Below the pieces are notes generated by a model. The model was not told where the DNA came from. It ran no database searches and saw only the letters and a list, made by a program, of their open reading frames with translations. Below are positions 22,097 through 64,000 of a stretch of 64,000 nt of DNA, one piece after another. The translations under genes and the position numbers were made by a program. This DNA is from Chloroflexota bacterium (lineage in GTDB: Bacteria; Chloroflexota; Anaerolineae; DTLA01), in the NCBI GenBank assembly GCA_014874485.1, contig JADBJK010000062.1, positions 1 to 64,000 of the forward strand, in the 5' to 3' direction. Positions within the stretch are counted from its first letter, which is position 1; every line of letters starts with the position of its first letter.

Positions 22097-22312
22097 GTCA
22101 TTGCGAGGGCGCGCAGCGCCCGTAGGGACAATTCATGAATTGTCCCTACTAGGACGCGAAGCGCCGAAGAATCTCGCCAACCGAGATGCTTCGCTTCGCT
22201 CACGATGGCGTGAGAAGGCACGTGCGACGCACCTCGGAGGTGCGTCGCACGTGGGCCGACCGGATTGCTTCGCTTCGCTCGCAATGACAACGGGTGATTT
22301 TCCTGTGGTCAA
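22097..22312. repeat. palindromic intergenic repeat (family A), copy 2
   Basis: GTCATTGCGAG at the left and CTCGCAATGAC near 22278-22288 are inverted ends. This copy carries a perfect 28-bp palindrome at 22122-22149 (GTAGGGACAATT and its inverse) in place of the GAAGCAATCCC segment seen in copies 1 and 3. It fills the space between convergent genes; the remaining bases 22000-22096 hold only a GGCCGC/GCGGCC hairpin without a T run. Confidence 0.9.
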
Positions 22313-26749: not shown

Positions 26750-26825
26750 TTCCGATGGGAACAAACCAACGCGCGCCTTCGTCTTCCATGCGCAATTCCC
26801 TTGAGTGGGAAGAAGGAGGAAGGCG

Positions 26826-28172
26826 ATGAAAAGGGCATGGAGGTTCGGAATCGTGCTGGTGTTGACCCTGGCCCTGGCCGGGTGCGCCTACGTGGGCCGG
26901 CAGAATGCCGCGCCGTCGGGGTTCGTCCAGGCGCGGGATGCGGCGTTGAGTTATGTCAAGGTCGGCCACCCCGACCTGAACTGGCCCGCCTCGTTCAAGT
27001 GGACGGCGGAGGACATCACCGCCGGCAGGCTGGGCGCGACCACCTGGAAGTTCTCGGACCCCAGCGGCCTGTCCGTCGTCGTGTCGCTGCCCGTTGTGCC
27101 GGATGCGCTCTACAGCGTGGAGGTGGCCTTCGGCGATTTCGCGTGGAGCGGCAAGGTGGATGCGATGGGCAAGGTCGCCCAGGAGCCGACCCCCGCGCCC
27201 TCGCTCACGGCCGAGGCGGCCCGCGATGCGGCGGTCGCGCACTTCCTGAGCCTCTACCCAGACCTGTCGCGGCCCGACGAGTGGATTGAAGTGGACGCGG
27301 CAGGCGGGCTTCTGGGCATCACCGCGCTGCGCTACATCGGCGGCGACTGGACGGTGGACGTGCAGGCCCCCGTCGTGCCCAAGCCGGAATACGCCGTCCG
27401 CGTAGCCCATGCGTCGGGCAAGGGCTGGGTTGGCCGGGTGTTCGCCGACGGCACGGTGGGCATGGACGAGGGCACGACGTTCCTCGCCGACGACACCCGC
27501 CCGACGCGGATTCTGGAAGCCGTCCGCACCGACCCCAAAGCCTGGGAGGGGAAGTACATCCGCGTTGTCGGCTACTACGAAGGGTGGGATTTGTTCGGCT
27601 CCGTGGGCACCGGCCCGGCCGTTACGCGGAGCGACTGGGTCATCCGCGACGACGGTGGCGCTATCTACGTGCACGCGGGGGGCGCGCCGGTTGACGGCCT
27701 GGACATCCCGCCCTCGGAGAAGGTGGAAAACGTGCTCCTGCGGCTGTTCGCCCAGGTGCGGGTGAACGACGCGGGCCAGCCCTACCTGTGGGTTGTGCAG
27801 GGAACGCGCATCGGCCCTGCCACGCAGGTGCTGCTGGAGTACGAGCGGTCGGGCGGGTTCGCGGGGTTCATGGACCGGCTGACCGTGTACGCGGACGGCC
27901 GCGCGGTGCTCAACCGCAAGGGGCTGGAGACCACCTTCCGCCTGACGCCGGAGGAGATGGCGCGGCTTACGGGGGAACTCACCTCGGCGCAGTTCACGAG
28001 CCTGGACGAGGCGTACCTGCCCTCCGACCCGTGCTGCGACCGATTCACGTACGTCATCCGGTATATGAACCCGGAGGGCGGCAAGCCTCACACCGTGAAG
28101 ACGATGGACGGGACGATTCCGCCGCAGTTGGTGCCCGTCCTGGAGATGCTGAACAACCTCGTGAGCCGGTAA
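26826..28172 (+). CDS. putative lipoprotein of unknown function
   Basis: A 448-residue lipoprotein: MKRAWRFGIVLVLTLALAGC with an LAGC lipobox. The mature part begins with about 230 residues that appear to contain two related segments (ARDAALSYVKVGHPDLNWP and ARDAAVAHFLSLYPDLSRP), each followed by a TTWKFSDPSG or TALRYIGGDW strand. The C-terminal third has LTVYADGRAVLNRKG and EEMARLTGELTSAQFTSLDE. I do not know the family. AAGGAGGAAGGCG precedes ATG 26826; a GTG at 26805 is unlikely. It ends convergent with the permease-peptidase gene. Confidence 0.8.
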   Translation: MKRAWRFGIVLVLTLALAGCAYVGRQNAAPSGFVQARDAALSYVKVGHPDLNWPASFKWTAEDITAGRLGATTWKFSDPSGLSVVVSLPVVPDALYSVEVAFGDFAWSGKVDAMGKVAQEPTPAPSLTAEAARDAAVAHFLSLYPDLSRPDEWIEVDAAGGLLGITALRYIGGDWTVDVQAPVVPKPEYAVRVAHASGKGWVGRVFADGTVGMDEGTTFLADDTRPTRILEAVRTDPKAWEGKYIRVVGYYEGWDLFGSVGTGPAVTRSDWVIRDDGGAIYVHAGGAPVDGLDIPPSEKVENVLLRLFAQVRVNDAGQPYLWVVQGTRIGPATQVLLEYERSGGFAGFMDRLTVYADGRAVLNRKGLETTFRLTPEEMARLTGELTSAQFTSLDEAYLPSDPCCDRFTYVIRYMNPEGGKPHTVKTMDGTIPPQLVPVLEMLNNLVSR

Positions 28173-28208: not shown

Positions 28209-28238
28209 AGTAGGGGCAGTTCATGAACTGCCCCTACT
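28209..28238. repeat. perfect 30-bp palindrome between convergent genes
   Basis: AGTAGGGGCAGTTCA is followed by its exact inverse. Partial copies (GTAGGGGCAG at 28198, GGGCATTCGTGAATTGCCCC at 28253-28272) flank it. It could act as a two-way terminator. The same design with GGGACAATTC occurs at 22122, 34394 and 53154. Confidence 0.85.
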
Positions 28239-28289: not shown

Positions 28290-31200
28290 TCAATACGCCG
28301 TGTCGGTCGCCAGCACCGCCGCGGTGAGGCTCAGCAGCCGCCCTGCGCGGCCGATTTTCGCGGGGTCCAGGTCTTCGGGGACATCGCCTGGCAGGTGCGA
28401 ATAGGCGTCCGCGCCCGGCCACGAGAGGGTGATCATCGGGTAGTTCGTCTGTAACCGCTGCGACAGGTAGAACGGCGCGTGAAGCCCCATCCCGGCCGTC
28501 TTCAGCGGAATGCCAAGCTGCCGCGCGCCGGTCTGCACCATCTCCGTCATGCGGTCGCTGCTGGAACGCCACGCCAGCACGGCCTCCCCGTCGCCTGCGC
28601 CCACGCCCTCCACCTGAAACACGGCGACAACCTTCAGGTCCGAGAGGCCCGACCGCGTGCCCAGGTACTGATACAGCGCGGGCGTCTGGTGCAGCTCCCC
28701 GCCCGCCCATGCCACAAAGAGCACCGTGCGCTTGGGCTTGAAATCCCAAGCCTTCCAGGAGCGGATGATCTCCAGCATGGTAGCCACACCGCTGGCGTTG
28801 TCGTTGGCGCCCGGGTACAGGACGCCGTTGACCGCGCCCAGCCCGTCGTAGTAGGCGAGGATGACCACCATCTCCGAATCCAGAGCCACATCTTCGCCGG
28901 GCCACATGGCCATGACGTTGCGGTAGGCGATGTCCTGCTGCTCAACGGGCGCGAATTGCGCCCTCGCCCGCGCGGAAGTCGCCACGTGGAATCCCTCGCC
29001 GTCGGCCAGCGATGCCCTGCGGTCGCGCAACGCGGCCAGGTTGTAGCCGGAGCCGCTCAGGATGCGGTCTGCCGCCTCAGGCGTGATGTACAGCACGGGC
29101 ATGGGCCGCGCCGTTAGCCCCGCGCCGGGGATGGACGTGCCGGGCAGTTCGCGGCGGAGCATGACGCTGGGGTCGTCGGTGATGACGAGCGCCGCCTGCG
29201 CGCCCACGTAGGCCAGCGAACTCCCCGGGCCGTAGAACCAGGGATAGGTGGTCAGCCACTGATCGGCGTGGTCCAGCAGGAGAATCCGATCCGTGCGCGT
29301 CGCGTCCGCCTCGGAGAACCCAAGCGCCGCGCGCACCGCGCTCAGGTTCGTGCTCGGCGAGTCGGCCCTCATCGCCACGTACACGATTTCCCCATCGGCT
29401 TCCCTCGCTTGCCTTGACAAGAGTTCGGTCGCCTCGGCGAAATCCCGGCCCATGGTGAGTGCGACGGGCTTGCCCAAGGCGTCCCACGCCTCCAGAGTCG
29501 TCTGGCCCTGGAGCGCCACCACGCGGCTGTGAATCGTCTGGAAGTACGTCCAGTCCTCCCCCGCCGTAACAAGCCCCAAGTCCTCAAACTGGCGAGCGAT
29601 CCAGTCGGCGGCGGCTTCGGCGCCCGGCGTGCCGATTTGCCGCCCACCGAACTCTGGCCCCGCGAGCGTCTGCACATCGGCCATAGCGCGGCCCGCGTCA
29701 AACGTCTCGGCCAGCGGCTTGTACCGCGCCCAGATGCCCGTGCTCTGCGCTGTCCACATGCCGACGCCGAGGATCACGACCGCCGCCAGCAGCGTGTACC
29801 GGTTGAACAGCGTCTTCATGCTCAGTGTCAGTTCCTCGGACATGCGGCGCAGACCCTCGCCCAGCAGGGTAAAAGCCACGATGGCGATCATGAAAGCCAG
29901 AGCCGGGTACACTGTGGCCCACGGAAAACTGCGGAACGAGCGCCACGAATTGGCGAGCATGACCCCCCATTCGGGGATGTCGTAATAGGTGAGGAGAGGC
30001 GGCCCGCCCTCGCCTTCCGCCGCAAACCCGCCGCCGATGAACACGCCCAGGAAGCCCAATTCGCCCAGAATCATCAGCGCGCCGCCCATCTCCAGGAAAG
30101 CCAGGCTGACCATAGTCGGCCAGATGTTGGGCAGGACGTGCCGCGTCAGAATCTGGCCCTGGCCCGCGCCGGTGGCCACCGCGCCCTCTATGTACGCCAT
30201 GGGGCGCACCGAGATGACCTGGGCGCGGATATTCTGCATGACTTCCGGCCACCCGATGACCAGCAGGCCGAACACGAAGGCGTACAGCCCCTGGCGGATG
30301 CCGGTGGCATAGACGACCAGCGTCGCCAGCAGCAACGCGGGGAACGAATTGACCATCTCGCCCAGGGCCATCAGGGCACGGTCCAGGAGCGTGTCGTGGA
30401 ACCAGCCCGCCAAGAATCCGAACACCCCGCCGATGACCAGCCGCCCCGCCACAGCCAGCAGCGCCAGCATCATGGTGCGGCGCGCGCCTGCCAGGAGCAG
30501 GCTCAAAATGTCGCGGCCCTGCGCGTCGCTGCCCAGCGGGAAGAGGTCCGACGGCCGGAAAGGCGGGGTGTACGTAACGCCCGCAATCTCCACGCGGCTG
30601 GCGGTGGTATAGGGATTGTGGGGGGCCAACTGGGGCCCGGCCAGCACCATCGCGAGGAGCGCGATGCCCAGCACTGCGCCGAGCGCGAGGGCCGGGTTCC
30701 CCACCGTCGCCTTGCGCCAGGCGCGAAGCCGCCCCCACCGCATGGACTCTGCAAGGCGCGACATCTCCTGTTTGGATTCCTCGGTGATGCGCGCGTCCAC
30801 AGGGAGCGGGGCCAGTTCCTGCGCCTTCTTGCGCCGCTCCCTCAGCCCCCGCAGGGTAATGGCGCGCACGAACCCCGTCCACGCCAGTTCCAGCCAGTTG
30901 CTGATCTCCATCTGCGCCGAGCCTGCCTCCTGCGCCCGTCGCAGCCGCGGGTCCAGCACCCGGTAGGCCAAGTCCATCAGGCCGTTCACCAGCACGAAGA
31001 AGAACCCCGTCGCCAGCACAAGCGCCGAGGCCGCATTCAGGTCGTAGCCCTGCAGCCGCTCCAGCAGGTGCTTGCCGAGGCCGGGCCAGCCGAAGAACAC
31101 CTCCACCACCGGCAGGCTGCTGAGCGCGAACCGCAGCGAGGACACGATGGCCGTCAGCACGGTCCCGGCCGCATTGGGCAGGATGTGCCCGAACCAGATT

Positions 31201-31856
31201 TCGGAGTTGGGGAGACCCTTGGCGCGTGCGGTGCGGACAAAGTCCTCGCCGATGAGGTTCTCCATGTACACCGACGTGAGCCGCGCCACCTGAGCGATGG
31301 GCCGGGCCGCCAACACCAGCACGGGCAGCACCAGATGCGAATCCCAGCCGAACCCGCCCACAGGCACGAGTCGGACGCCCGTGCGCTTGTAGAACTCAAT
31401 GGCCCCCAGTTGCAGCAGCACGGCAAGGAAGAAACTGGGCGTGGACACGCCAACAACCGAGAGCAGGAGCATGGACAGCGACGCGGCCCGCCGCCGAATG
31501 GCCGCAAACGCGATACCCAGCAGCCCGCCGACGACCCCGCCCAGCGCCATCGCCAGCAGCAACAGCACCGAACTGTTCCAGAGCGAGGTCCCGACCAACT
31601 GGGCCAGCGGGGCGCGCTCGCCCTGGCGCTGCATGTACCCCGTAGTGCGGGTATACTCGCCCCAATCCCCGCGGGGGATGCCCTCCCACAGGGTGATGGT
31701 CTGTCCCCAGGCGGTCTGCGCGACTTCGCCGATGGGCGCGGGCTGGAGCAGGCGCTGGCGCATGGCCATATCCTGCGTGAAGTAGGCCACGTAGGTAATC
31801 GCGAACAGCACCACGATTGCAGCAGCAACGCGACGCAATACGAACCGTGTGAGCAT
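28290..31856 (-). CDS. fusion of two oligopeptide-type ABC permeases with an M28-like peptidase domain
   Basis: A 1188-residue single frame. Residues 1-305 match DppB/OppB permeases (MLTRFVLRRVAAAIVVLFAI; VRTARAKGLPNSEIWFGHILPNA is the EAA-type loop). After a charged linker (310-375), residues 375-680 match DppC/OppC (FPLGSDAQGRDILSLLLAGARRTM; AYIEGAVATGAGQGQILTRHVLPN). A further membrane segment at 687-703 leads to an outside part (720-1188) like PA plus M28 peptidases, with GANDNASGVATMLEIIRSW near 1016 and YSHLPGDVPEDLD near 1152. In that domain the first zinc His (usual AHYD) is Tyr in AYYDG, and the usual Glu-Glu pair is Gly-Glu (AGGELH), so activity is doubtful. ATG 31856 follows GGAGAC. 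No ATPase or binding protein gene is adjacent. Confidence 0.85.
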   Translation of the reverse strand: MLTRFVLRRVAAAIVVLFAITYVAYFTQDMAMRQRLLQPAPIGEVAQTAWGQTITLWEGIPRGDWGEYTRTTGYMQRQGERAPLAQLVGTSLWNSSVLLLLAMALGGVVGGLLGIAFAAIRRRAASLSMLLLSVVGVSTPSFFLAVLLQLGAIEFYKRTGVRLVPVGGFGWDSHLVLPVLVLAARPIAQVARLTSVYMENLIGEDFVRTARAKGLPNSEIWFGHILPNAAGTVLTAIVSSLRFALSSLPVVEVFFGWPGLGKHLLERLQGYDLNAASALVLATGFFFVLVNGLMDLAYRVLDPRLRRAQEAGSAQMEISNWLELAWTGFVRAITLRGLRERRKKAQELAPLPVDARITEESKQEMSRLAESMRWGRLRAWRKATVGNPALALGAVLGIALLAMVLAGPQLAPHNPYTTASRVEIAGVTYTPPFRPSDLFPLGSDAQGRDILSLLLAGARRTMMLALLAVAGRLVIGGVFGFLAGWFHDTLLDRALMALGEMVNSFPALLLATLVVYATGIRQGLYAFVFGLLVIGWPEVMQNIRAQVISVRPMAYIEGAVATGAGQGQILTRHVLPNIWPTMVSLAFLEMGGALMILGELGFLGVFIGGGFAAEGEGGPPLLTYYDIPEWGVMLANSWRSFRSFPWATVYPALAFMIAIVAFTLLGEGLRRMSEELTLSMKTLFNRYTLLAAVVILGVGMWTAQSTGIWARYKPLAETFDAGRAMADVQTLAGPEFGGRQIGTPGAEAAADWIARQFEDLGLVTAGEDWTYFQTIHSRVVALQGQTTLEAWDALGKPVALTMGRDFAEATELLSRQAREADGEIVYVAMRADSPSTNLSAVRAALGFSEADATRTDRILLLDHADQWLTTYPWFYGPGSSLAYVGAQAALVITDDPSVMLRRELPGTSIPGAGLTARPMPVLYITPEAADRILSGSGYNLAALRDRRASLADGEGFHVATSARARAQFAPVEQQDIAYRNVMAMWPGEDVALDSEMVVILAYYDGLGAVNGVLYPGANDNASGVATMLEIIRSWKAWDFKPKRTVLFVAWAGGELHQTPALYQYLGTRSGLSDLKVVAVFQVEGVGAGDGEAVLAWRSSSDRMTEMVQTGARQLGIPLKTAGMGLHAPFYLSQRLQTNYPMITLSWPGADAYSHLPGDVPEDLDPAKIGRAGRLLSLTAAVLATDTAY

Positions 31857-34351: not shown

Positions 34352-34563
34352 CCACAGGGGTTCTTGTTGTCATTGCGAGGCCGCGCAGCGCCCGTAGGGA
34401 CAATTCATGAATTGTCCCTACTGAGGCGCGGAGCGCCGAAGAATCTCGTCAACCGAGATGCTTCGCTTCGCTCGCAATGACAGATGGCGTGTCATTGCGA
34501 GGGCACGGAGTGCCCCAAGCAATCTCCGGACCGCGAGATTGCTTCGCTTCGCTCGCAATGACA
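34352..34563. repeat. palindromic intergenic repeat (family A), copy 4
   Basis: Left end CCACAGGGGTTCTTG, then GTCATTGCGAG; right end CTCGCAATGAC. It carries the 28-bp GTAGGGACAATT palindrome at 34394-34421 and then a second partial unit (34490-34563). It lies between convergent genes. Confidence 0.9.
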
Positions 34564-41765: not shown

Positions 41766-44700
41766 TCAGGGAATCTCCCACGTGCACGCCTCGCCCGCCA
41801 GCACCCAGTACCCCCTGCCGGGCTCCAGCAGGCGCAGGTCGTTGGCGAAGTCCGGCGCGCCCGGCCTGTACCGCCGCCATGTCCCGCCCATCTCCCCCGC
41901 CTCGTAGGCCATCACGGCGATCACCTTGTCGGCGAGGGGAGCCAGCGCCTCTTGGGGGCTGAGCGGCGCGGACGCCGGGAACCCCACCATGTTCCACCCG
42001 GCGTACAGTGGAATCTGCGCCCCCGAAGGCGCGCTGCCGGCCACCGTCCAGATGGTCGGCGCGAGCACCTTCACCCACAAGCCCATGCGCGCGTCCACAT
42101 AGGTCAGGGAGTTCGCCCCCGGCGGCATCAGCGGGCTGTACGACTTCCACGTCCCGGCGCCGGCATCCCAGTAGTACACGCTCACCAGCACGTCCGAGAT
42201 GGACGCGAACACGACATCGGGATTGTTGGAACTCGGTGCGACGGGCAGCGAGACGAGGTTCCACCCCTCGCGGAGCGCGATGCCTGGCACGCCGGGCGTG
42301 CCGGTCGGCGTATGGGTGGGCGTATTCGTCGGCGACGGGCTTGGCGTCCACGTGGCCGTCGGCGTGTCAGTGGGGGTCATGCTGGGCGCAACCGTCGGCG
42401 TCGCCGTGGGCGTGCTGGTGGGCGCGGCGGTCGGCGTATGGGTGGGCGTGTTCGTCGGCGACGGGCTTGGCGTCCACGTGGCCGTCGGCGTGTCAGTGGG
42501 GGTCATGCTGGGCGCAACCGTCGGCGTCGCCGTGGGCGTGCTGGTGGGCGCGGCGGTCGGCGTATGGGTGGGCGTATTCGTCGGCGACGGGCTTGGCGTC
42601 CACGTGGCCGTTGGCGTCAACGTGGGCGAGGGCGTGCGCGTCGGTGTGGCCGTTGCGCTCGCCACCGAGTACGCCACCGTCAGCAGCGGCCGCTTGGACA
42701 CGTCGGGGTACTCCGCCGACGCGAAGCGGTACTCCACCGACCCGCCTGTGGACGCGCCCTTGACAACCATGCCGAAGTTCTCGGCGGGATAGGCAACCCA
42801 GTGCCGCACCAGGTCGGTAACGTCCACCTCAATGGCGCTGTTGGCCGCGTTCATGTGGAACGTGGCGTAGGCAGTGGCCGTGCGGTCGTAGGTGGTGCCG
42901 TTGCAGCCGTCGGCTTCCCAGCGCTCGCCCGCGCGGGGCTGCTGCCACGTGGCTTCGGTAACAACCCAGGGCCGCAGCACCCGGTACACCAACCCGTCAA
43001 ACATGTTGCCGTTGCTCTGGTACGTGGCGTACAGCGTGAGCGACGCGCTGATGACGTTGGCCCCGGCCGGGATGGACGACACGTCAAAGCGCACCAGCCC
43101 CGCCATTACGTCGTAGGTGCGCACGCTGAAGTGGGTGAGGCCCGCGAAGTTGCTCGTAACCTGCCACTGATCCATGTACGTGTCCACGCTGCCCGCGTAC
43201 CCGTTCGCGCCGTAGCGGAAGGTCGCCGTTTGCACCGGCCCGCCCGGCGTGGGGGTGGGCGGCACGGGTGTGGGGGTCGGGGTGCGCGTGGGCGTGGCCG
43301 AGGGCGTGCGGGTCGGCGTGGGCGTCGGCCCGGCGGTGAACGTGGCTGTTGGGGTTGCCGTTGGCCCGGCGGTGGATGTCGGCGTCCGCGTGGGCGTGGC
43401 CGTGGGCCCACCGCTCGGCCAGTACTCAATCACCAGTTTCGGGCGGATGGACGAGTTGGCGTTCTCCGACGAGGCGAAGGTGTAGCCCACGGAGTTCCCG
43501 CCCGCGTCCCGCAGCAGCAGCCCCAGGTTCGTGGACGGCGCGGCGGCCCAGTTCCGCACGATGTCGGTAACGTCCAGGCTCACCCACACGTTGGTGATGC
43601 TGGGCGGCGGCTGGACCATGTCCGTGGCCGCTGCCGAGCGGTCGGGATTCGGCGGCTCGGTGCTGTTGCACCCGGCCAGGCCCCAGAAGGTGCTGCTGGT
43701 AGCGCGGTTCCACGTGGCGCCCGACTCCGTCCACCCGCGTAGCACCTGGTACGGGCTGAAGTAGGCCGAGCCGGCGTTGCTCCGCGCCGTGAGGTAGATT
43801 TCCAGCCGCGCCGAGCCGATGGACGCCCCCGCGGGCAGCGGCGACAGGTCAAACCGCAGGAGCGCCGACCAGATGTCCTGCCGCCCGTAGTCGTAGTTCC
43901 CGCCGCGGATGCTGAACGTCGTCTCGTTGCCGTAGTTGGTGTCTTTGGACCACCAGTCTATGAACGTGTCGGTAGCGCCCGTGTACCCGTTCACCCCCTG
44001 CTGGAGCGTGAGGACGGTGGGCGGGGTGGACGGCGTGGGCGTGAACGTGGCGGTGGGCGCGGGCGTCGGCGTCCGCGTGGGCGGCTGGCCCTCCAGCGTG
44101 TACTGCACGACCAATTTCGGGCGCAGGCTGCTCGTCTCGTAGTCCGACCCGGCCAAACTGTACTGCACCGGCTCGGCCATGTTGCACGTGGACTTGAGCA
44201 CCAGGCCCTGGTTGTTGGCAGGGTCCAGCACCCACGCCTGCACGATATTCGTAACGTCAAAGGTGTACCAGCGGTTGGTGGACTGGAGCCAGACTTCCTC
44301 GCCGCCGATGTCGGACCGGTCGGTGCCGATGCCATTGCACCCGGGCGCGGCCCAGGTCTCCACGCCCTGCGGGCGGTTCCACGTGGCCTGCGAGTCCACC
44401 CACGGGCGCAGCACCGCGTAGGGTCGGGCGCACATGTAGGCGCTGTTGCTCTGGCCCACGGTGTACACCTGGAGTTGCGCGCTCTGCACGGTGGCGTTGC
44501 TCGGGATGCCGCTCAGGTCAAAGCGCAGGAGCGACGCGATGACATCCTGCGAACGCACGATGAGGATGGTGTCCCAGTTGTAGTTGGAGTCGTCGCTGTA
44601 GTCCGAGATGTACGTGTCGCGCACGCCGGTGTATCCGTTCAGCCCCTGTTGGAAGGTAACCGTCGTGGCGACGGGCGTGGGGCCAGGGGTGAACGTCGGC

Positions 44701-46484
44701 GTGGGCGTGGGCGTAGCCGTCGGCGTGCGGGTGGGCGTGGCCGTCGGCCCGGCGGTGAACGTGGGCGTGCGCGTGGGCGTATGCGTGGCCGTGGCCTGCG
44801 CGGGGGTCGGCGTGGGCGTGTTGGTCGGGCCGGCGCTGCCGCTCTTGGTTACGTCCACGAAGTGGATGTACTCGTCGCCGTCGCTGCGCCCGTCAATGTA
44901 GAAGTCGCTGCCGCCCGCAAGGCTATTGGCAAACCGCGCGTTGGGCAGCACGAACGTGGCCTTCTTCCACGTCAGGGAGTTGGTCTTGTACACGCTGCCC
45001 CCAAGCCGCTCGCCCGTCGTGGAGTCGTAGAACAGATCCCAGCGGTCGGTGCCCCGGTCAAAGTACGTAACCGTTACGGTTACCGTCCGGTTGGTGTTGT
45101 ACAGGTAGCCATCGTCCACCTTGAAGAACATGTAGGGGTTGCCCGAGGCGGCATCGGTGCGACGGGTGATCCACGACTCCTTGCCCACCCACGAGCCGCC
45201 CAGGTTCACGCCCTGCTCGGTCTTGTTGGTGATGGTGCATCCGGCGGTGGTCGTGGGGAAGTTCAGTCCCGTGCGGTAGGTTACCACCACCGTTTTGCCG
45301 CCGGGCACCGAGTCGTCCTGGTACAGCCAGAAACTGAAGTTGCCGCACTCTGGATACCACGTGTAGCCCGACTCGCGCATGGCCACCCAGACGCTGGGCG
45401 TATCCTGCAGCGTGCGCCCCAGGTACCGGTTGGCGAACTCCAGGATGGGAAAGTTGTAGTAGCGCACGTTGCCCTGGGCATCCTGCAAGAGCCAGCCGCG
45501 CCAGTCCTGCGGCGAGTAGTCTATCGTGAGCCAGGTGTTGTGGCGATGGAGCACGCCCAGCACGCCCCAGTACGTCTCCTCCTCGGTCGGCGTCATGTAC
45601 TGGTACGCCTCCTGGCCGGTCGGGTACGTCAGGCTCCACTTGAGGATGGGGTCCACCGTGCCGCAGCCCTCAAACCCGGGCTTGTCGGGGATGTACTGAG
45701 AGTCCGCGTCGGCCTGCATCGCCGCGTGAAAGTCGCCGATGCCGTAGGTGAGGGCGGCGTAGTCGGTCCACTCCTTGCGCTCGCAGATGTGCTGGAACCG
45801 CGGCGTTCCTGGAATCACCACGCGCGTCGTGTGGAACGCCTGGCCGTACATGTCCACAATCTGCTTGACGGTGCTCACCCACAGCGGCCCCGAAAGGCCG
45901 TTGTCGCGCATGCACTGATCGTAGGCTTCCACGCAGGGCTGGGTCTCGGCGTACACGCCCACGCCCATGATGATGAACTCCAGGCGCGGGTCGCCGTCAA
46001 ACCGCTGTCCCAGCGCGCGCACGAAGTTGCCGTACTTCTGGAGATAGGCCCAGTGCCAGTATTTGGGAATCTGCTCCGTGCCGCAGGTGATGATGGCGTC
46101 AGGATAGCGGCTCTGGAACCACGAGGGGACCTGCAGGCCGCCCGCCTGTCCCGCGTAGGTTTGCAGGTGAAGGGCCACTGGCTTGCCCTTGGCCCACTGG
46201 GCCGCCACGAAGTTCTCAATCAAGTCCCAGCGGTACTGGCCCTCGCTCGGCTCCAGTTGCTTCCAACTGAAGGTCATGTGCCCGCCCACGATGGGCCACT
46301 GGGCGGGGTCCAGGTTGGCGCTGTCGCGCGCGATGTACACGCCTGGGCGAGGGGTCGCCCACGTGGCGCTGCTGCGGATGCCCTGCGCCGAACTGTAGTT
46401 TCGGCCCCCTGCGCCCAGCCCGACGATGGTCAGGCACAGCATCACCGTCGCAATCCATAGGAAGCGAGATCGGCTTGTCCTCAT
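41766..46484 (-). CDS. large secreted protein: glycosidase-like domain plus three DNRLRE domains
   Basis: A 1572-residue exported protein. A signal peptide ([19 protein letters not shown]) is followed by a barrel-like region at about 30-400: [24 protein letters not shown] and [12 protein letters not shown] resemble GH42/GH5-type glycosidases, though catalytic residues are not certain. A beta-rich region to about 620 follows. Then come three DNRLRE (CBM96-like) domains, each starting near [36 protein letters not shown] or [18 protein letters not shown] and holding ALLRFDLS and RPKLVVQY strands. TPTPT-rich linkers separate them; one contains a 42-residue tandem repeat. The last 140 residues ([23 protein letters not shown]) form a repeated cap domain. 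Likely binds and degrades polysaccharide outside the cell. Confidence 0.85.
42304..42607. repeat. 126-bp tandem repeat coding Thr/Pro linker
   Basis: The unit recurs at a 126-base step (starts at 42304, 42430, 42556; third copy partial) and codes [20 protein letters not shown] and 22 more residues per unit. The copies are almost identical in DNA, so the expansion is recent. Confidence 0.9.
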
Positions 46485-46832
46485 GTGGCAATCGCTCCTG
46501 GGTTTTGGGTGTGAAACCTCTAGGATATAGTCTATGCGCTTTTCCTCTGCCAACAATGGGGAAAAGGTACTACGGGCGCTGCAAGGCCTACCGCGCCCGT
46601 CGTCGGGCACGGCGCGCCCTTGGGGGGGCGCTATCTGTAACGCAGGACCCCGACGCGGAGATACGCGGAACCACCAACGCCATGCGGCCAGGCGTCGGTG
46701 CGCCAGGTAACCCACGCCCCCGTGGGCAGCACTGCAAGATTCGCGCCACCCCGCGCAGGGGTCCAGGCAGCCGTCTGCCCCGCCGCGAAGAGGCTCGGCG
46801 AAAAGGGCACATTCCCGCACGGTGCGCGCCGA
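46485..46832. other. 348-base stretch without a supported gene
   Basis: It lies between the divergent secreted-protein gene and the tRNA promoter. A weak - strand promoter is possible (TTGGCA and TATATC, 18 bases apart, near 46525-46555) for the gene at 46484. The frames seen here are Arg-rich and lack a ribosome-binding site. Confidence 0.5.
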
Positions 46833-46861
46833 TTGACAGAACCGCACCCCCGCCGTATAAT
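46833..46861 (+). promoter_or_regulatory. consensus promoter of the tRNA gene
   Basis: TTGACA (46833-46838) and TATAAT (46856-46861) are exactly 17 bases apart, a perfect sigma-70 consensus. It starts transcription about 5 bases before the mature tRNA 5' end. Confidence 0.9.
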
Positions 46862-53012: not shown

Positions 53013-53206
53013 CCACAGAGAAGATTGTCCACCTGTCAGCGAAGCGAAGCAATCCCACGTGCGACGCACCTCGGAGGTGCGTCGCACGTGCCTTCTCACG
53101 CCATTGCGAGCGAAGCATCTCGTCGCCGCGGTTCTCAGGCGCTCCACGCCCCAGTAGGGACAATTCATGAATTGTCCCTACGGGCGCCCCGCACCCTCGG
53201 AATGAC
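53013..53206. repeat. palindromic intergenic repeat (family A), copy 6, reversed
   Basis: This copy begins CCACAGAGAAG and runs in the opposite order: GCGAAGCGAAGCAATCC, the CACGTGCGACGCACC palindrome, then the 28-bp GTAGGGACAATT palindrome at 53154-53181 and GGAATGAC. It shows that the element inserts in either orientation. Confidence 0.85.
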
Positions 53207-53507: not shown

Positions 53508-56500
53508 CTACGGCAAGTGCACGTGGTCTCGCATGATGGCGGGCAGGTGGATAAACGTACAGTCGGCATCCCCTCCGGGCCCGCAATCGCGGTCGCAGAT
53601 GCCGTCATCCACCCCGTCGCAGTACCCGTCCAGGCCGCCGGTCGGGCAGTCCTGTGGGCACGTGGCCGAGTTCTCGGGGTCGCTGCACACGCCATCGCCG
53701 CAGGGCGACTCCCCGAAGTCCAGTCCCATGAGTTGGGTTACCTCCACGCGGGTGCCGTCTCCGAGGACGCACACGGCGCACGAATCGGTCATGAATCGCC
53801 CGCACACCTCCCGATCCTCGGTTACCTCCAACCCGTAGCCGTGCTGCGCGCAGTAACTGAACGCCTGGCCTGCGCTTCCGAGCAGGTACTGCCACGCATT
53901 GGTGGGCCCCGTCGGAAGTTCGCACAGCCCGACCTCCCCCACATCCTCCAGCACGGTGCGGTACTCGTAGCCCATCGCCATGCAGTACACGGCCGCGGGG
54001 TTCCTCATGCCATCCCTAGGCCCTTGGGCGACTGCATCTCCCGCGCAAGAACCCGACGCCCGAGCGCTGATGGTGTGGGCTATGTCCCTGAGGAAGGATG
54101 CCAGCCAAACGGAAGCGGGCCCCGTCCCCGCCGAAGCCGTTGCCGACGCGGTCGGGCCGCCAAAGTACAGGATGCGCACCCAGTCGCCCCTGTCCCCCAG
54201 GATGATCTCATATCGCCCGTTGCCGTCCACGTCGGCGACCGTTACGGCATCGCCCTGCTCAAAGTCCAGCGCGAACTCCCGCACCTTGTTCCCGTCCATG
54301 TCAAAGACGTGAATCCAGTTGTCCCTGTCGGCGTGTACGATTTCCGCTTTACCAGCGCCGTTGAGGTCTCCCACGGTCAAGCCATCGTACCCCTCAAAAT
54401 CCAGCGGGAAGCTCGCGAGCACCGTTCCGCTCATGTTGAAGACACGAATCCTGTCGTCGGAACGGTCGCCGTGAATAATCTCGGCCAGGCCGTCGCCGTT
54501 CACGTCCCCGGCGGCCAGGCCGTCCCAGCCCTCAAAGTCGCGCACGAAGGATGCGATCACAGTTCCGCTCATGTTGAAGATGCGAATCCTGTCGTCGGAA
54601 CGGTCGCCGTGAATAATCTCGGCCCGGCCGTCGCCATTCACATCGCCAACGGCCAGCCCGTCGCCCTCCTCAAAGTCCTGCCGGAACTCGCTGATGAGGC
54701 TCCCGTCTCCCCGCAGCACGCGAATCCAGTCGCCCCTGTCGCCGTGCACGATCTCAGCCCTGCCATCCCCGTTGACATCCCCCACCGCCAACCCGTCGTG
54801 CTCCTGGAAGTCAAGCCCGAAGGCGACCTCCGTCTCCCCAACCGCGTTCAATACGCGGATGACATCGGCGCTCCTGTCCGCGTGGACGATTTCGGGGTAA
54901 CGATCGCCATCCACATCTCCCGCAGCCAGCCCATCAAACTCCTCAAAATCCAGGGTGAACCCCCTGCACACGCCGGCCACGTAGTACGCATCGTGGCACC
55001 AGGCGTGCCCGTAGTCCACCTCGCCGTAGCCGTTGGACCCCGGGATGTTGTCCTCTGGCCGAGGCCAGCCCGCACCCCAACTGTTCCGGATGATCCAGGT
55101 GTGGTTCGCGTCATTCCACCCCACGATGACGATGCAGTGGCCGCCGCCACAAGCATGGAGCGGCCCGTGGCAGAGCAACGCTCGCTTGATCGCGGTCCGA
55201 TCGCCGCCCACGTGCCCATAGTCCGCAATGCTCCACAGCCTGTCGCCCCAGGTGCTGCACCGAGCGCACGTGCAGGGGTTGGAGCACAGACCGGTGCTGC
55301 AGTTGCAGAGGCAACGGCCATTCTCGTCCTCGCAGGCGCCCGATTGGTACGCAAAGCAGGTCTCGTCCACGACGCCTGAGTACAGCACGTGCGAGAACGT
55401 ATCCAGGCGCGCATCCGTTGATGCCGTTCGGCCTGAGCAACTCGCGGGGCGGTAGCACCCGGAAACGAGGTCCTGCTCCGACAAATCTACGCGGATTCCG
55501 GTTTCCACGACATAGGTCATCTCCATCGCGCCGATTGTGGCGAACGCCCAGCAACTGCCGCAATTCTGCTGGTCCCTCACAGGTGGAAAGGCATAGTAGT
55601 CCCTCCAGTCAAAACGGCTGGGCAATGCGGACATTTGGCAGCGGTTGCACGGCGGGCAACGGGAGCCACCGCAGTCAATCCCCGTCTCATCGCCGTTGCG
55701 GATTCCGTCAAAGCAACTCGCGACGGGCGTTGGCGTGCGCGTTGGCGTGCGCGTTGGCGTGCGCGTGCGCGTCGGAGTGCGGGTCGGGGTCCGCGTGGGC
55801 GTGGCGGTGCGTGTAGGCGTCAACGTGGGGGTCCGGGTCGGCGTCGGGGTCAACGTAGCGGTTGGAGTCCGTGTTCGGGTAGGCGTCGCGGTGGCAGTGC
55901 CGGCGTAGGAGATCACCAGATAGGGGCGGTAAATGTTCTCGTGCTCGGATGTCCGGAAGACCCGCCCCCAGTCGCCGATGGTCAGCGGCTGGAGCATGAA
56001 GCCGTAGTTCGGCACCGAGCCCTCCAGCCAGTCTTTCACCAAGTCGCTCACGTTGAAACTGCGCCAACCGATGCCGACCTCCGAGTCCAGGTCCAGGTAC
56101 CTGGTGCAATCCTTTGGACGGGTGCGCCAGGTAACCTTCATGGGATCCCAGTCGCTGGCAGCCAGGCAGAAGCGGAGCTTGGCACGGGTGCCCAGCAGGG
56201 GCGATTCCTGGTAGAGCCACAAGGTGGCCCCTTTGAAATCGGCGCCTCCGGGGTAACCGCTGAAATCAAAGCGAATCAGCGCCCATTGCTCGTCCCCTTT
56301 GTAACGCCCGACCACCATCGTGAGGGCATCTCCGTAGTTGTCGTCGGGGTAGCGCGCGTCAATGTAGGTGTCGCCAGTGGGATAGCAGGTGTACTCGGCG
56401 GCCAGAGGCCGGCTCCCCTCGCCTGCCCCGTAGGCCAGGGGGTCCGCCCCCGACTGGGGAGGCGCCACCGCCAGCCCGGACCGCGCTGCCAGCACCAGCA

Positions 56501-56543
56501 GTATGGGCAACAACACGAACAGAACAAACCAACGTCGTCTCAT
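53508..56543 (-). CDS. secreted multidomain papain-family protease
   Basis: A 1011-residue exported protein. After a signal peptide, residues 50-220 form a DNRLRE domain ([36 protein letters not shown]). A TPTRT linker (225-275) and a Cys segment ([17 protein letters not shown]) follow. The C1A protease domain at about 295-520 has Gln/Cys in [16 protein letters not shown], His in [13 protein letters not shown] and Asn in [10 protein letters not shown], so it should be active. Residues 525-760 are FG-GAP-like repeats with calcium-type [10 protein letters not shown] loops. A DUF333 domain ([17 protein letters not shown]) and a Cys-rich [10 protein letters not shown] segment come next, then [14 protein letters not shown]. 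Likely degrades extracellular protein. Confidence 0.88.
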
Positions 56544-60665: not shown

Positions 60666-63600
60666 ATGGACAGAGGCGTGTTGCGCCTGCGCGGGCATCG
60701 TCGCGCCGCGATGGTCTGCGCGTATGTCATCGCCGTCGCCCTGACGCTGGGGCTGGCGGCTGAAGCGATGAGTCCCCCCGCGCCGCAGGCTCCGGCCGAA
60801 CCGGAGACCGTCTTTCGGCAAGCACCCCTCGCACCGCCCCAGCCCTACGAGCCCCACCCCCAGGGCGGCTACGTCCCGCCCGCCGTGGACCTGTCCCACT
60901 TCCGCGCCTCGTGGGACGGCCCCGCGCCCGCGGCGAACCTGTCGCGCTTTGACTGGCGCGCGCAGGGCAAGGTTACGTCGGTGAAGAACCAGAGCGCCTG
61001 CGGCGCGTGCTACGCTTTCGCCAGCATCGGCGCGTTTGAGTCCAAACTGCTCATTGACAACGCAGGCACGTGGGACTTCTCCGAGAACAACGCCAAGGAG
61101 TGCGACTGGCACGCGGGCTCCTGCGGGGGCGGCAACTACTTCCGCATGGCCAGTTTCTTCTCCCAGGCGGGCACCGTCCTGGAATCCTGCGACCCTTATG
61201 TGCCCTCGGATGTGCCCTGCACGACCGGCTGTCCCTATCAGAAGACCCTGCTGGATTGGCGCATCATCTCCGGCAGCCAGATGCCCGACACGAACACCCT
61301 GAAGAACTACATCATGACCTATGGCCCCATCATGACGACGATGTACGCGGGCAGCGGGAACAACGCCTGGCAGCAGGAGTTCAACGCCTACAACGGCAGT
61401 TACACGCTCTACTACACCGGCGCGGGCAACCCGAATCACGGCGTCCTCATCGTGGGATGGGACGACAGCCTGCACCATGCGGGTGGCACAGGCGCGTGGA
61501 TCGTGAAGAACTCCTGGGGCACCAACTGGGGCGGGACGTGCGGTTTCGGCTCCGAGCGCGGCTACTTCACCATCGCCTACGGTTCAGCCAAGATCGGCTA
61601 CAACTCGGCCTTCGTGTACGATTGGCAGGATTACGACCCCAACGGCAGCATCCTGTACTACGACGAGGCCGGATGGCAGGGGAGAGCGTGGACCGTAGGG
61701 GGTACCACCCTGTGGGGCCTCGCCAAGTTCTACCCGCCCAGCAACACGAACGTAACCCGCGTGGAGTTCTGGACGACGGACAGGACAACCGACGTGGACG
61801 TGTACCTGTACGGCGACTTCAATGGGACCACGCTGAGCAACCTGCTGGCGCAGAAGTTGAACAACGCCTTCAACGAGCCTGGGTACCATTCGGTGGCGCT
61901 GGATTCTCCGGTGCCGGTCAGCGCGGGCGATGACGTGATCGCCGTCGTGAAGTTCACCAATGCATCGTACCTGTACCCCGTGGCCGCCGACGAAGTCGGG
62001 CCCCACGAGACCGGCCGCACGTACATCAGCGGCAGTGGAACATCGTGGCTTGACCTTGGCGCCCAGTACTCACAAGACGTGGCCATTCGCATCCGCACGT
62101 CCTCGCAGGCTACGACAACGGCAACGCCAAGCGCGACCGCCACGCGGACGCCGACGCCGTCGGGCGGCGCCCCGGCCACCGGCCCCTGGTCCGGCACCAC
62201 CAGCCGCGGCCAGCCCATGTCCTTTGATGTCCAGACCGGCGGCACCCAATGGGCCAACTTCTACCTGAAGACCGACTTCGTGGCCGCCAACTGCGGCAAC
62301 GCCACCGGCACCACCGAGATCACCCTGTACGGACCGGGGAATATCACCGGCGGGCAGTTCAGCGGGGGCACCGGCACCTTCTCGTTCACCGGCCAGTTCT
62401 CGTCGCCTTCTGCCGCGAGCGGAACCTACGCGTTCAACAACTACCTGGTCATCGTGGGATTGCCGTCTCCGCCCTACATCTGTTATTACTACCTGACACA
62501 GTCGGGCACGTGGAACGCGACAGCGACGGAGGCAGGCACGGCCACGCCCACGCCGACGGCGACGCGCACCCCAACCCGCACTGCTACCCGCACGCCGACC
62601 CGAACTCCCACGCGCACTGCCACACGCACGCCGACCCGAACCCCCACGCGCACTGCCACGCCAACTCGGACGCCAACGCCGACGCGCACCTACACCCCGC
62701 GCCCCACCAACACGCCCGGCCCATCGCCCACGTGGGTACCCGGTGCGCAGGCGCGGCTGTGGCTGCCCATCGTATTCCGGCAGTGGAACGCGGCGGCTGC
62801 GGCCACCCCGACCCCGACCGCCACACGAACCCGCACCGCTACGCGCACGCCGACCCGAACCCCCACGCGCACCGCCACGCCAGGCCAGCACGTGATCCGC
62901 ATCGGCGTGGGGGCAGACATCAGCGGGGTTGCCGCGTCCTACGGATGGCGGCAGGCTAACGCCGTGCAACTGGCCGTGAACCAGGTCAACGCCGCAGGGG
63001 GCATTCGCGTCGGCGGGACGACCTACACGCTGGAAACGGTCCTGGCCGACAGCGGCTGCGACGCGGAACGCGCCCCGGACGCCGCAACCGCGCTCATCAA
63101 CGCGGGGGTGGTCGCGGTGGTGGGGCATACGTGCAGCGCCGAATCCATGTCCGCACAGCCCATTTACTACGACGCCCGCGTATCCATGATCACCTCCTCG
63201 TCCAGCAACCCGGAACTGACCCAGCTGGGCTACGACACGACCTTCCGAACGCGGCCTCATGATGGCACGCCTCCTTCGCTCATGGCGGCCCACCTGCGCA
63301 TCTGGGCCGGGCTCTCCACAAGCGCCATCGTGGACAGTCGCCCTGCGGTGCCCTGGTGGGGCGACGCCTACGAGCAGACCTTCACGGCGCTGGGCGGCAC
63401 CATCACCAGCCGTCGCGCGGTGCACAGCACCGACGAATTCACGGCCACGCTCGCAGCCATCCTGCCCGAGCACCCAGACACCATCGCCAACCTGTCCGTT
63501 TCAGGCCCCTTGGAGGCAGGGCTGTTCAGCCAAATCGCCCACAACATGGGCATGACGGCTGTGCCGGTCGGGTGGATGTCGCAGACGAACAATGAGTCGG

Positions 63601-64000
63601 TGCTGGCCGACTACGCCAATGTGGCGGGGGCCGCTGCGGAAGGCGACTACGTCGCCATGTCGTTCCGACGGTTCCAGGACATGCCCGGCTGGTCAACATT
63701 TCTGGACGCCTACCGCGCAGCCCGGTTCGCCCATGAACCCGACGATCCGGGCGTCCTGGGCGCGTTTGCCTACGACGCTGCCCGCATCATCATCGCCGCC
63801 ATCGTCCGGTCGCAGAGCACCGATCCGGCCGTGATTCGGGACTTCATCGCTGCGACGAGCAACTACGAGGGCGTGGTGGGCACCTACGTGGGCTTTGATG
63901 CGCACGGCGACGTCATCCCCCAGTGGGCCTGGCTGGTGCGGCGACAGGGCGGGCAGTGGGTAACGGTGGCCGGGCCGAGCGCATCGGGGCCCGTGCGCCG
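60666..64000 (+). CDS. papain-family protease fused to a periplasmic-binding-protein domain (3' end beyond window)
   Basis: An open frame of at least 1111 codons that runs off the window, so no stop is seen. A signal region (MVCAYVIAVALTLGLAAEA) is followed by a C1A protease at about 90-300: Gln/Cys in KNQSACGACYAFASIG, His in PNHGVLIVGWDD and Asn in IVKNSWGTNWGG. A lectin-like beta domain (to about 475), a second beta domain, and TPTRT linkers with RPTNTPGPSPTWVPGAQARLWLPIVFRQ follow near 690. From about residue 740 a type 1 periplasmic-binding-protein domain begins (IRIGVGADISGVAASYGWRQ, NQVNAAGGIRVGGTTYTLE, VVAVVGHTCSAESMSAQPIY). GAAAGGAGCAGGGAC precedes ATG 60666. It should act outside the cell. 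Confidence 0.85.
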   Translation, partial: MDRGVLRLRGHRRAAMVCAYVIAVALTLGLAAEAMSPPAPQAPAEPETVFRQAPLAPPQPYEPHPQGGYVPPAVDLSHFRASWDGPAPAANLSRFDWRAQGKVTSVKNQSACGACYAFASIGAFESKLLIDNAGTWDFSENNAKECDWHAGSCGGGNYFRMASFFSQAGTVLESCDPYVPSDVPCTTGCPYQKTLLDWRIISGSQMPDTNTLKNYIMTYGPIMTTMYAGSGNNAWQQEFNAYNGSYTLYYTGAGNPNHGVLIVGWDDSLHHAGGTGAWIVKNSWGTNWGGTCGFGSERGYFTIAYGSAKIGYNSAFVYDWQDYDPNGSILYYDEAGWQGRAWTVGGTTLWGLAKFYPPSNTNVTRVEFWTTDRTTDVDVYLYGDFNGTTLSNLLAQKLNNAFNEPGYHSVALDSPVPVSAGDDVIAVVKFTNASYLYPVAADEVGPHETGRTYISGSGTSWLDLGAQYSQDVAIRIRTSSQATTTATPSATATRTPTPSGGAPATGPWSGTTSRGQPMSFDVQTGGTQWANFYLKTDFVAANCGNATGTTEITLYGPGNITGGQFSGGTGTFSFTGQFSSPSAASGTYAFNNYLVIVGLPSPPYICYYYLTQSGTWNATATEAGTATPTPTATRTPTRTATRTPTRTPTRTATRTPTRTPTRTATPTRTPTPTRTYTPRPTNTPGPSPTWVPGAQARLWLPIVFRQWNAAAAATPTPTATRTRTATRTPTRTPTRTATPGQHVIRIGVGADISGVAASYGWRQANAVQLAVNQVNAAGGIRVGGTTYTLETVLADSGCDAERAPDAATALINAGVVAVVGHTCSAESMSAQPIYYDARVSMITSSSSNPELTQLGYDTTFRTRPHDGTPPSLMAAHLRIWAGLSTSAIVDSRPAVPWWGDAYEQTFTALGGTITSRRAVHSTDEFTATLAAILPEHPDTIANLSVSGPLEAGLFSQIAHNMGMTAVPVGWMSQTNNESVLADYANVAGAAAEGDYVAMSFRRFQDMPGWSTFLDAYRAARFAHEPDDPGVLGAFAYDAARIIIAAIVRSQSTDPAVIRDFIAATSNYEGVVGTYVGFDAHGDVIPQWAWLVRRQGGQWVTVAGPSASGPVR

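Follow-up and report, generated by a model that had tools for sequence, protein, structure and literature searches.

What does an aminopeptidase-like domain do on the outer face of a peptide permease when a single gene encodes both, and how is such a permease supplied with substrate and with energy? The question is raised by a gene in the 64,000-nucleotide stretch of DNA analysed here (the window), for which the original prediction was a DppB-DppC-M28 triple fusion whose peptidase part handles the substrate at the entry gate. The reading that we favor, with a probability of roughly 45%, is that of a peptide-importer core bearing a tethered pseudo-peptidase as an extracellular receptor or gate and sharing its ATPases in trans.

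Architecture and distribution of the fusion gene

The gene lies on the minus strand and is a single open frame of 1188 codons, running from an ATG at 31856 to a stop at 28290. An alternative GTG start upstream would give a protein of 1215 residues, and the alignment with the orthologue starts at the ATG. The encoded protein comprises, in order, a DppB-type permease (permB), a DppC-type permease (permC), a seventh transmembrane (TM) helix and a PA/M28 aminopeptidase-like domain, and the features of the locus are as follows.

28290..31856, minus strand: whole fusion gene, permB-permC-TM7-PA/M28-like, 1188 residues from the ATG (open frame, Pfam, orthologue alignment from residue 1)
30927..31856, minus strand: DppB/OppB-type permease, residues 1-310 (Pfam BPD_transp_1 at 110-307; PDB matches to DppB/OppB)
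31170..31250, minus strand: permB EAA loop, GEDFVRTARAKGLPNSEIWFGHILPNA, kept in all intact triple fusions
30705..30926, minus strand: inter-permease linker, residues 311-384, predicted to be cytosolic (lies behind the final helix of permB, without a domain match)
29841..30704, minus strand: DppC/OppC-type permease, residues 385-672 (second BPD_transp_1 stretch; PDB matches to DppC/OppC)
30126..30203, minus strand: permC EAA loop, PMAYIEGAVATGAGQGQILTRHVLPN (EAA loop comparison across the family)
29712..29840, minus strand: seventh TM helix and linker, residues 673-715, with NRYT motif, common to triple and split forms and predicted to take the M28 part outside
28962..29711, minus strand: N-terminal M28 segment and putative PA-like region, residues 716-965 (alignment; transferrin receptor match, profile 36-362)
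28293..28961, minus strand: M28 aminopeptidase-fold core, residues 966-1188, catalytically degenerate (Pfam M28; residue mapping)
28210..28237, no strand: perfect palindromic interspersed repeat, GTAGGGGCAnTTCATGAAnTGCCCCTAC or a close variant, just past the fusion stop and between convergent genes, with 21 exact sites in the genome

The predicted fusion in one frame is borne out by two Pfam BPD_transp_1 stretches (1.4e-42, 145.9 bits against a cut-off of 26.4) and a Peptidase_M28 match at residues 980-1176 (3.7e-17, 63.1 bits against a cut-off of 21.3), all of which exceed the gathering scores. In the PDB, residues 2-310 match DppB/OppB chains and residues 387-677 match DppC/OppC chains, and the permease helices are seen in hydropathy. 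Pfam returned no PA-domain match on the window protein, and the tentative label PA-like is drawn from where the region lies and from how it aligns with M28 relatives that contain a PA domain. An AlphaFold2 model of the window protein alone, computed with no alignment, had a mean pLDDT of 36.6 and was too poor for use. The seventh TM segment between permC and the M28 part is found family-wide, in triple and two-gene forms alike, and the hydrophobic segment 3' of permC has a conserved N-R-Y-T or S-K-R motif just before it. The ends of DppB and DppC are usually cytosolic and permC gains a seventh helix, a combination that places the M28 part outside, in agreement with the outer-face location originally proposed.

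The nearest orthologue, from the same genus, is 88% identical and aligns end to end. Matches to the fusion were found in 34 of 150 relatives, in 4 of the 400 genomes of a phylum sample (which includes one genome of another class) and, at E<=1e-90, in 64 of 396 genomes of the class. Altogether we found 53 unbroken permB-permC-M28 triple fusions from 49 genomes, mostly of one bacterial class, and 27 two-gene forms from 22 genomes, in which permB adjoins a permC-M28 fusion; one further gene, L044, is truncated at a contig end and belongs with the triple fusions, in addition to the 53. Both forms occur together in at least 10 genomes, that of the window among them (all genome tallies counted by hand from locus lists). 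The predicted domain order thus recurs in other genomes and, far from always being separate genes, the homologues are commonly fused, with a two-gene form also existing. A chimera or frameshift artefact is ruled out, as the order is unbroken in 49 genomes and every part is under selection. Between the window gene and its nearest orthologue, dN/dS is 0.10 for permB, 0.055 for permC, 0.30 for the short TM7 linker, 0.20 for the PA-like region, 0.11 for the M28 core and 0.12 overall; the M28-derived domain, at about 0.11, is under purifying selection.

As a weak test of presence outside the phylum, a scan of genome contigs with the single window protein gave one weak match to the M28 part only (L039), and a scan of viral contigs gave none. 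No permease-M28 fusion was found in the literature available as open-licence full text. The triple-fusion family is real and conserved, and apparently undescribed.

The window gene stands alone, between a convergent lipoprotein gene on its downstream side and, upstream, a divergent DUF218 gene. The convergent lipoprotein (26805-28172, plus strand) has a weak Emfourin domain, which is metalloprotease inhibitor-like, and the GTAGGGGCAnTTCATGAAnTGCCCCTAC palindrome or a close variant is also present at 22122-22149, 34394-34421 and 53154-53181. Three large genes elsewhere in the window encode a papain-family protease with lectin-like and type I periplasmic-binding domains, in one frame that continues past the window end (60666-63998, plus strand), a probably secreted protein with a papain-like protease, CBM96 and FG-GAP repeats (53508-56543, minus strand) and a probably secreted CBM96 and disaggregatase-repeat protein (41766-46847, minus strand). 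Near eight fusion genes, and often divergent from them, is a gene for a lipoprotein of ~590 residues (L072 5718-7481 and seven more loci) with an apparent beta-propeller, C-terminal TM helices and no Pfam match; homologues are found on contigs C8 and C98 of the window's genome.

Catalytic residues of the M28-derived domain

The M28 catalytic set consists of H97, D117, E151, E152, D179 and H256 (Aeromonas aminopeptidase numbering), and we mapped these residues with an alignment anchored on the first domain of a secreted M28 protein, the positions of E151/E152 and D117 being verified against the Aeromonas aminopeptidase in HMMER output. In the window protein H97 is replaced by Y1002, E151 by G1053 and D179 by E1083, and D117, E152 and H256 are retained as D1019, E1054 and H1154. 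The resulting pattern, Y-D-G-E-E-H against the required H-D-E-E-D-H, leaves the M28 two-metal and general-base set incomplete: the general base (E151) and the zinc ligand H97 are gone, and the Zn1 ligands D117/E152/H256 are still present, as they are in most of the window's clade. The full set is found in 0 of the 51 triple fusions tabulated. The largest triple-fusion clade mostly reads Q-D-E-G-R-x, with essentially only D117 and E151 left, and, judged from these residues, its metal site is gone. The residue losses differ between clades, an indication that decay went on after fusion.

Among the two-gene relatives the set is complete in 1 of 25 rows (a tabulation that includes the contig-cut L044; 1 of 24 without it). 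The exception, L116 (9166-11673), is from a genome of another class, and its tethered peptidase, with all six residues in place, may still be active. An aminopeptidase working outside to trim peptides at the entry gate, where substrate handling was originally envisaged, would account for the M28 fold, and an active tethered form may exist in L116 or be ancestral. For the triple fusions we regard this explanation as very improbable, given the missing general base and H97 in the window protein, the absence of a complete set throughout the tabulated triple fusions and the two residues left in their largest clade.

Something of the former active site may nonetheless be kept. Alignment columns within four residues of it have a conservation of 0.638 against 0.503 in the rest of the core, a value reached by 109 of 5000 random anchor sets, and this speaks, if modestly, for the retention of a pocket there. 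The outer domain matches the M28 family only and no binding-protein fold; a profile search found nicalin (2.5e-8) and transferrin receptor (7.7e-5), and nicastrin, a further non-catalytic M28-fold protein, was not among the matches.

An M28 protein whose first domain is intact is encoded next to the two-gene form. On contig C99 of the window's genome an operon-like run comprises permB, permC-M28, a TolB-like propeller and a secreted protein of 1619 residues in which two M28 domains flank a Peptidase_MA_2-like part (the Peptidase_MA_2 match falls just under its cut-off), and this layout recurs at other two-gene loci. In the two-gene operons tabulated, the full catalytic set is present in 11 of 11 first domains and in 0 of 7 second domains of the secreted M28 proteins. 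These operons, together with the many free peptide-binding proteins encoded elsewhere in the window's genome, would fit a normal importer served by a free binding protein, its pseudo-M28 domain only adding stability or docking a secreted peptidase, whose products would then arise near the channel. We consider this unlikely for the triple fusions, as a tandem M28 peptidase gene is missing from their loci, the window included, and no binding protein consistently adjoins the fusion genes. The free binding proteins also count against the receptor that we prefer, since they could still serve this permease.

At L117 (876-10112) three tandem permC-M28 genes come after a single permB gene; identity among the three copies is 84-85% in the permC parts and 60-65% in the M28 parts. 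Such a contrast would follow from an M28 part that determines specificity, and it could also be no more than faster evolution of an extracellular domain.

ATPase supply and the sister clade

When the ORFs of the window were compared with ATPase, binding-protein and permease references, the fusion ORF was the sole match, and no ATPase or binding protein adjoins it, as had been noted from the outset. The conserved ATPase partner that the original prediction had contemplated did not emerge from the other genomes either: within about 8 kb of the fusion genes in either direction, as far as the contigs extend, no ATPase neighbour is conserved (neighbourhood ORFs were classified by blastp against references from the window's own genome). 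Dpp-type ATPases are encoded at no fewer than six loci of the window's genome (C116, C55, C15, C86, C33 and C102), and its ordinary SBP-DppB-DppC operons on C51 (L058) and C71 (L057) are without any adjacent ATPase gene, which makes ATPase sharing plausible in this organism. NBDs can serve in trans, and sugar importers offer documented cases of multitask NBDs (PMC7658222). The EAA loops are intact in both permease halves family-wide, and of all parts of the fusion permC is under the strongest constraint. We infer that the fusion permease would be energised by ATPases in trans.

The main rival explanation draws on the clade adjoining that of the window. The window's clade (seven proteins) has a sister clade of seven proteins (L061, L062, L063, L064, L050, L101 and L122; support 99, from a quick tree search with SH-aLRT support only). 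In six of these seven the N-terminal part is an NBD that comes nearest to LolD/MacB models, giving the order NBD-DppB-DppC-M28, and the seventh, L064, is apparently incomplete at its N-terminus. Directly upstream are genes for a HlyD/MacA-type protein and for a MacB_PCD/FtsX permease, and at these loci an importer core looks to have been joined to a MacAB-like system. The fused NBDs have lost the signature and H-loop in 6 of 6 cases and Walker A in 3 of 6, and are not intact NBDs of the MacAB type. Seven other triple fusions have a TPR-like N-terminus, called from one Pfam TPR_2 match under its cut-off and otherwise by eye.

These additions, the MacB-like and MacA/HlyD-like genes ahead of the degenerate NBDs and the lack of a conserved adjacent ATPase in every architecture would be explained if the importer core had ceased to transport and become a membrane scaffold or sensor, one that bears a pseudo-peptidase on its outer side and a TPR or pseudo-ATPase on its inner side and that perhaps governs secreted peptidases or partner exporters. 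The degenerate fused ATPase fits such a non-transport role, at least in the sister clade, where this rival is strongest, and there it counts against a receptor. For the family we judge it somewhat unlikely, because both EAA loops are strongly conserved, in the NBD clade too, and the constraint on permC (dN/dS 0.055) fits ongoing coupling to an ATPase.

A proposed receptor derived from a peptidase, and known systems

Substrate capture by ABC importers of the Dpp/Opp type is thought to depend on a binding-protein fold dedicated to it. In the reading that we favor, one chain would supply the two transmembrane halves of a peptide importer of this type, and the membrane-tethered outer domain would be a PA/M28 aminopeptidase descendant that has lost catalysis. 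This pseudo-peptidase would capture peptides beside the channel mouth as a substrate receptor or gate, perhaps holding peptide N-termini in what is left of the active-site pocket, with possible help, in the clade of the window, from the retained one-metal site. It would act instead of, or alongside, a soluble binding protein, and Dpp/Opp-type ATPases from other loci would dock on the intact EAA loops and drive the permease. The peptide substrate, the receptor role and the supply of ATPases in trans are all inferred. That the outer domain substitutes for a binding protein, as the original prediction suggested, is the leading idea, now with a pseudo-enzyme as the receptor. A bolder version is possible, if doubtful: a dead M28 aminopeptidase would have replaced the substrate-binding protein as a covalent receptor of an undescribed class, and one clade would have merged further with a MacAB-like system via a decayed ATPase, uniting an importer core and an exporter part in one polypeptide.

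The permease halves resemble the DppB-DppC pair of Dpp/Opp-type (peptide/nickel) transporters (PDB 8z1v, 8j5q, 8z21, 8wd9) in both BPD_transp_1 domains, the B-then-C order and the EAA loops. Unlike that pair, they are fused to each other, to a seventh TM helix and to a pseudo-M28 ectodomain, with no ATPase or binding protein adjacent, and the NCBIfam equivalog score is far under its cut-off (148 against 350). With PA/M28 aminopeptidases such as YwaD and the Aeromonas leucyl aminopeptidase the outer domain shares, by profile, the fold and such motifs as GANDNASG and the HTPxD region; it differs in lacking the general base and H97 and in being tethered to the membrane on a permease. Nicalin and transferrin receptor are likewise membrane proteins with an ectodomain of degenerate M28 fold, but are eukaryotic, single-pass and without an ABC permease.

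If the receptor reading is true, the family would deliver substrate in a new way, with a retired peptidase in place of a binding-protein fold; it would be a bacterial analogue of nicalin and transferrin receptor, with their dead M28-fold ectodomains, and an importer-side counterpart of the dead peptidase of HlyB. A nested series, leading from an active secreted peptidase through a tethered form that is nearly active and the dead triple fusion to a quadruple fusion with a pseudo-ATPase, makes receptor evolution testable.

The closest working parallel is HlyB, in which a degenerate C39 domain recruits cargo (PMC8277102, PMC6363468). There too a dead peptidase domain is joined to an ABC transporter, but the domain has the C39 fold and is cytosolic, and the transporter is an exporter with its own active NBD. 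In architecture, GlnPQ and OpuA come closest: their extracytoplasmic receptors are fused to the membrane domain (PMC8025302, PMC11065425). The fusion described here, one frame with TM7, likewise joins an extracytoplasmic domain covalently to an importer TMD; the GlnPQ/OpuA receptor has the classical substrate-binding-protein fold, whereas the outer domain of the fusion is derived from M28.
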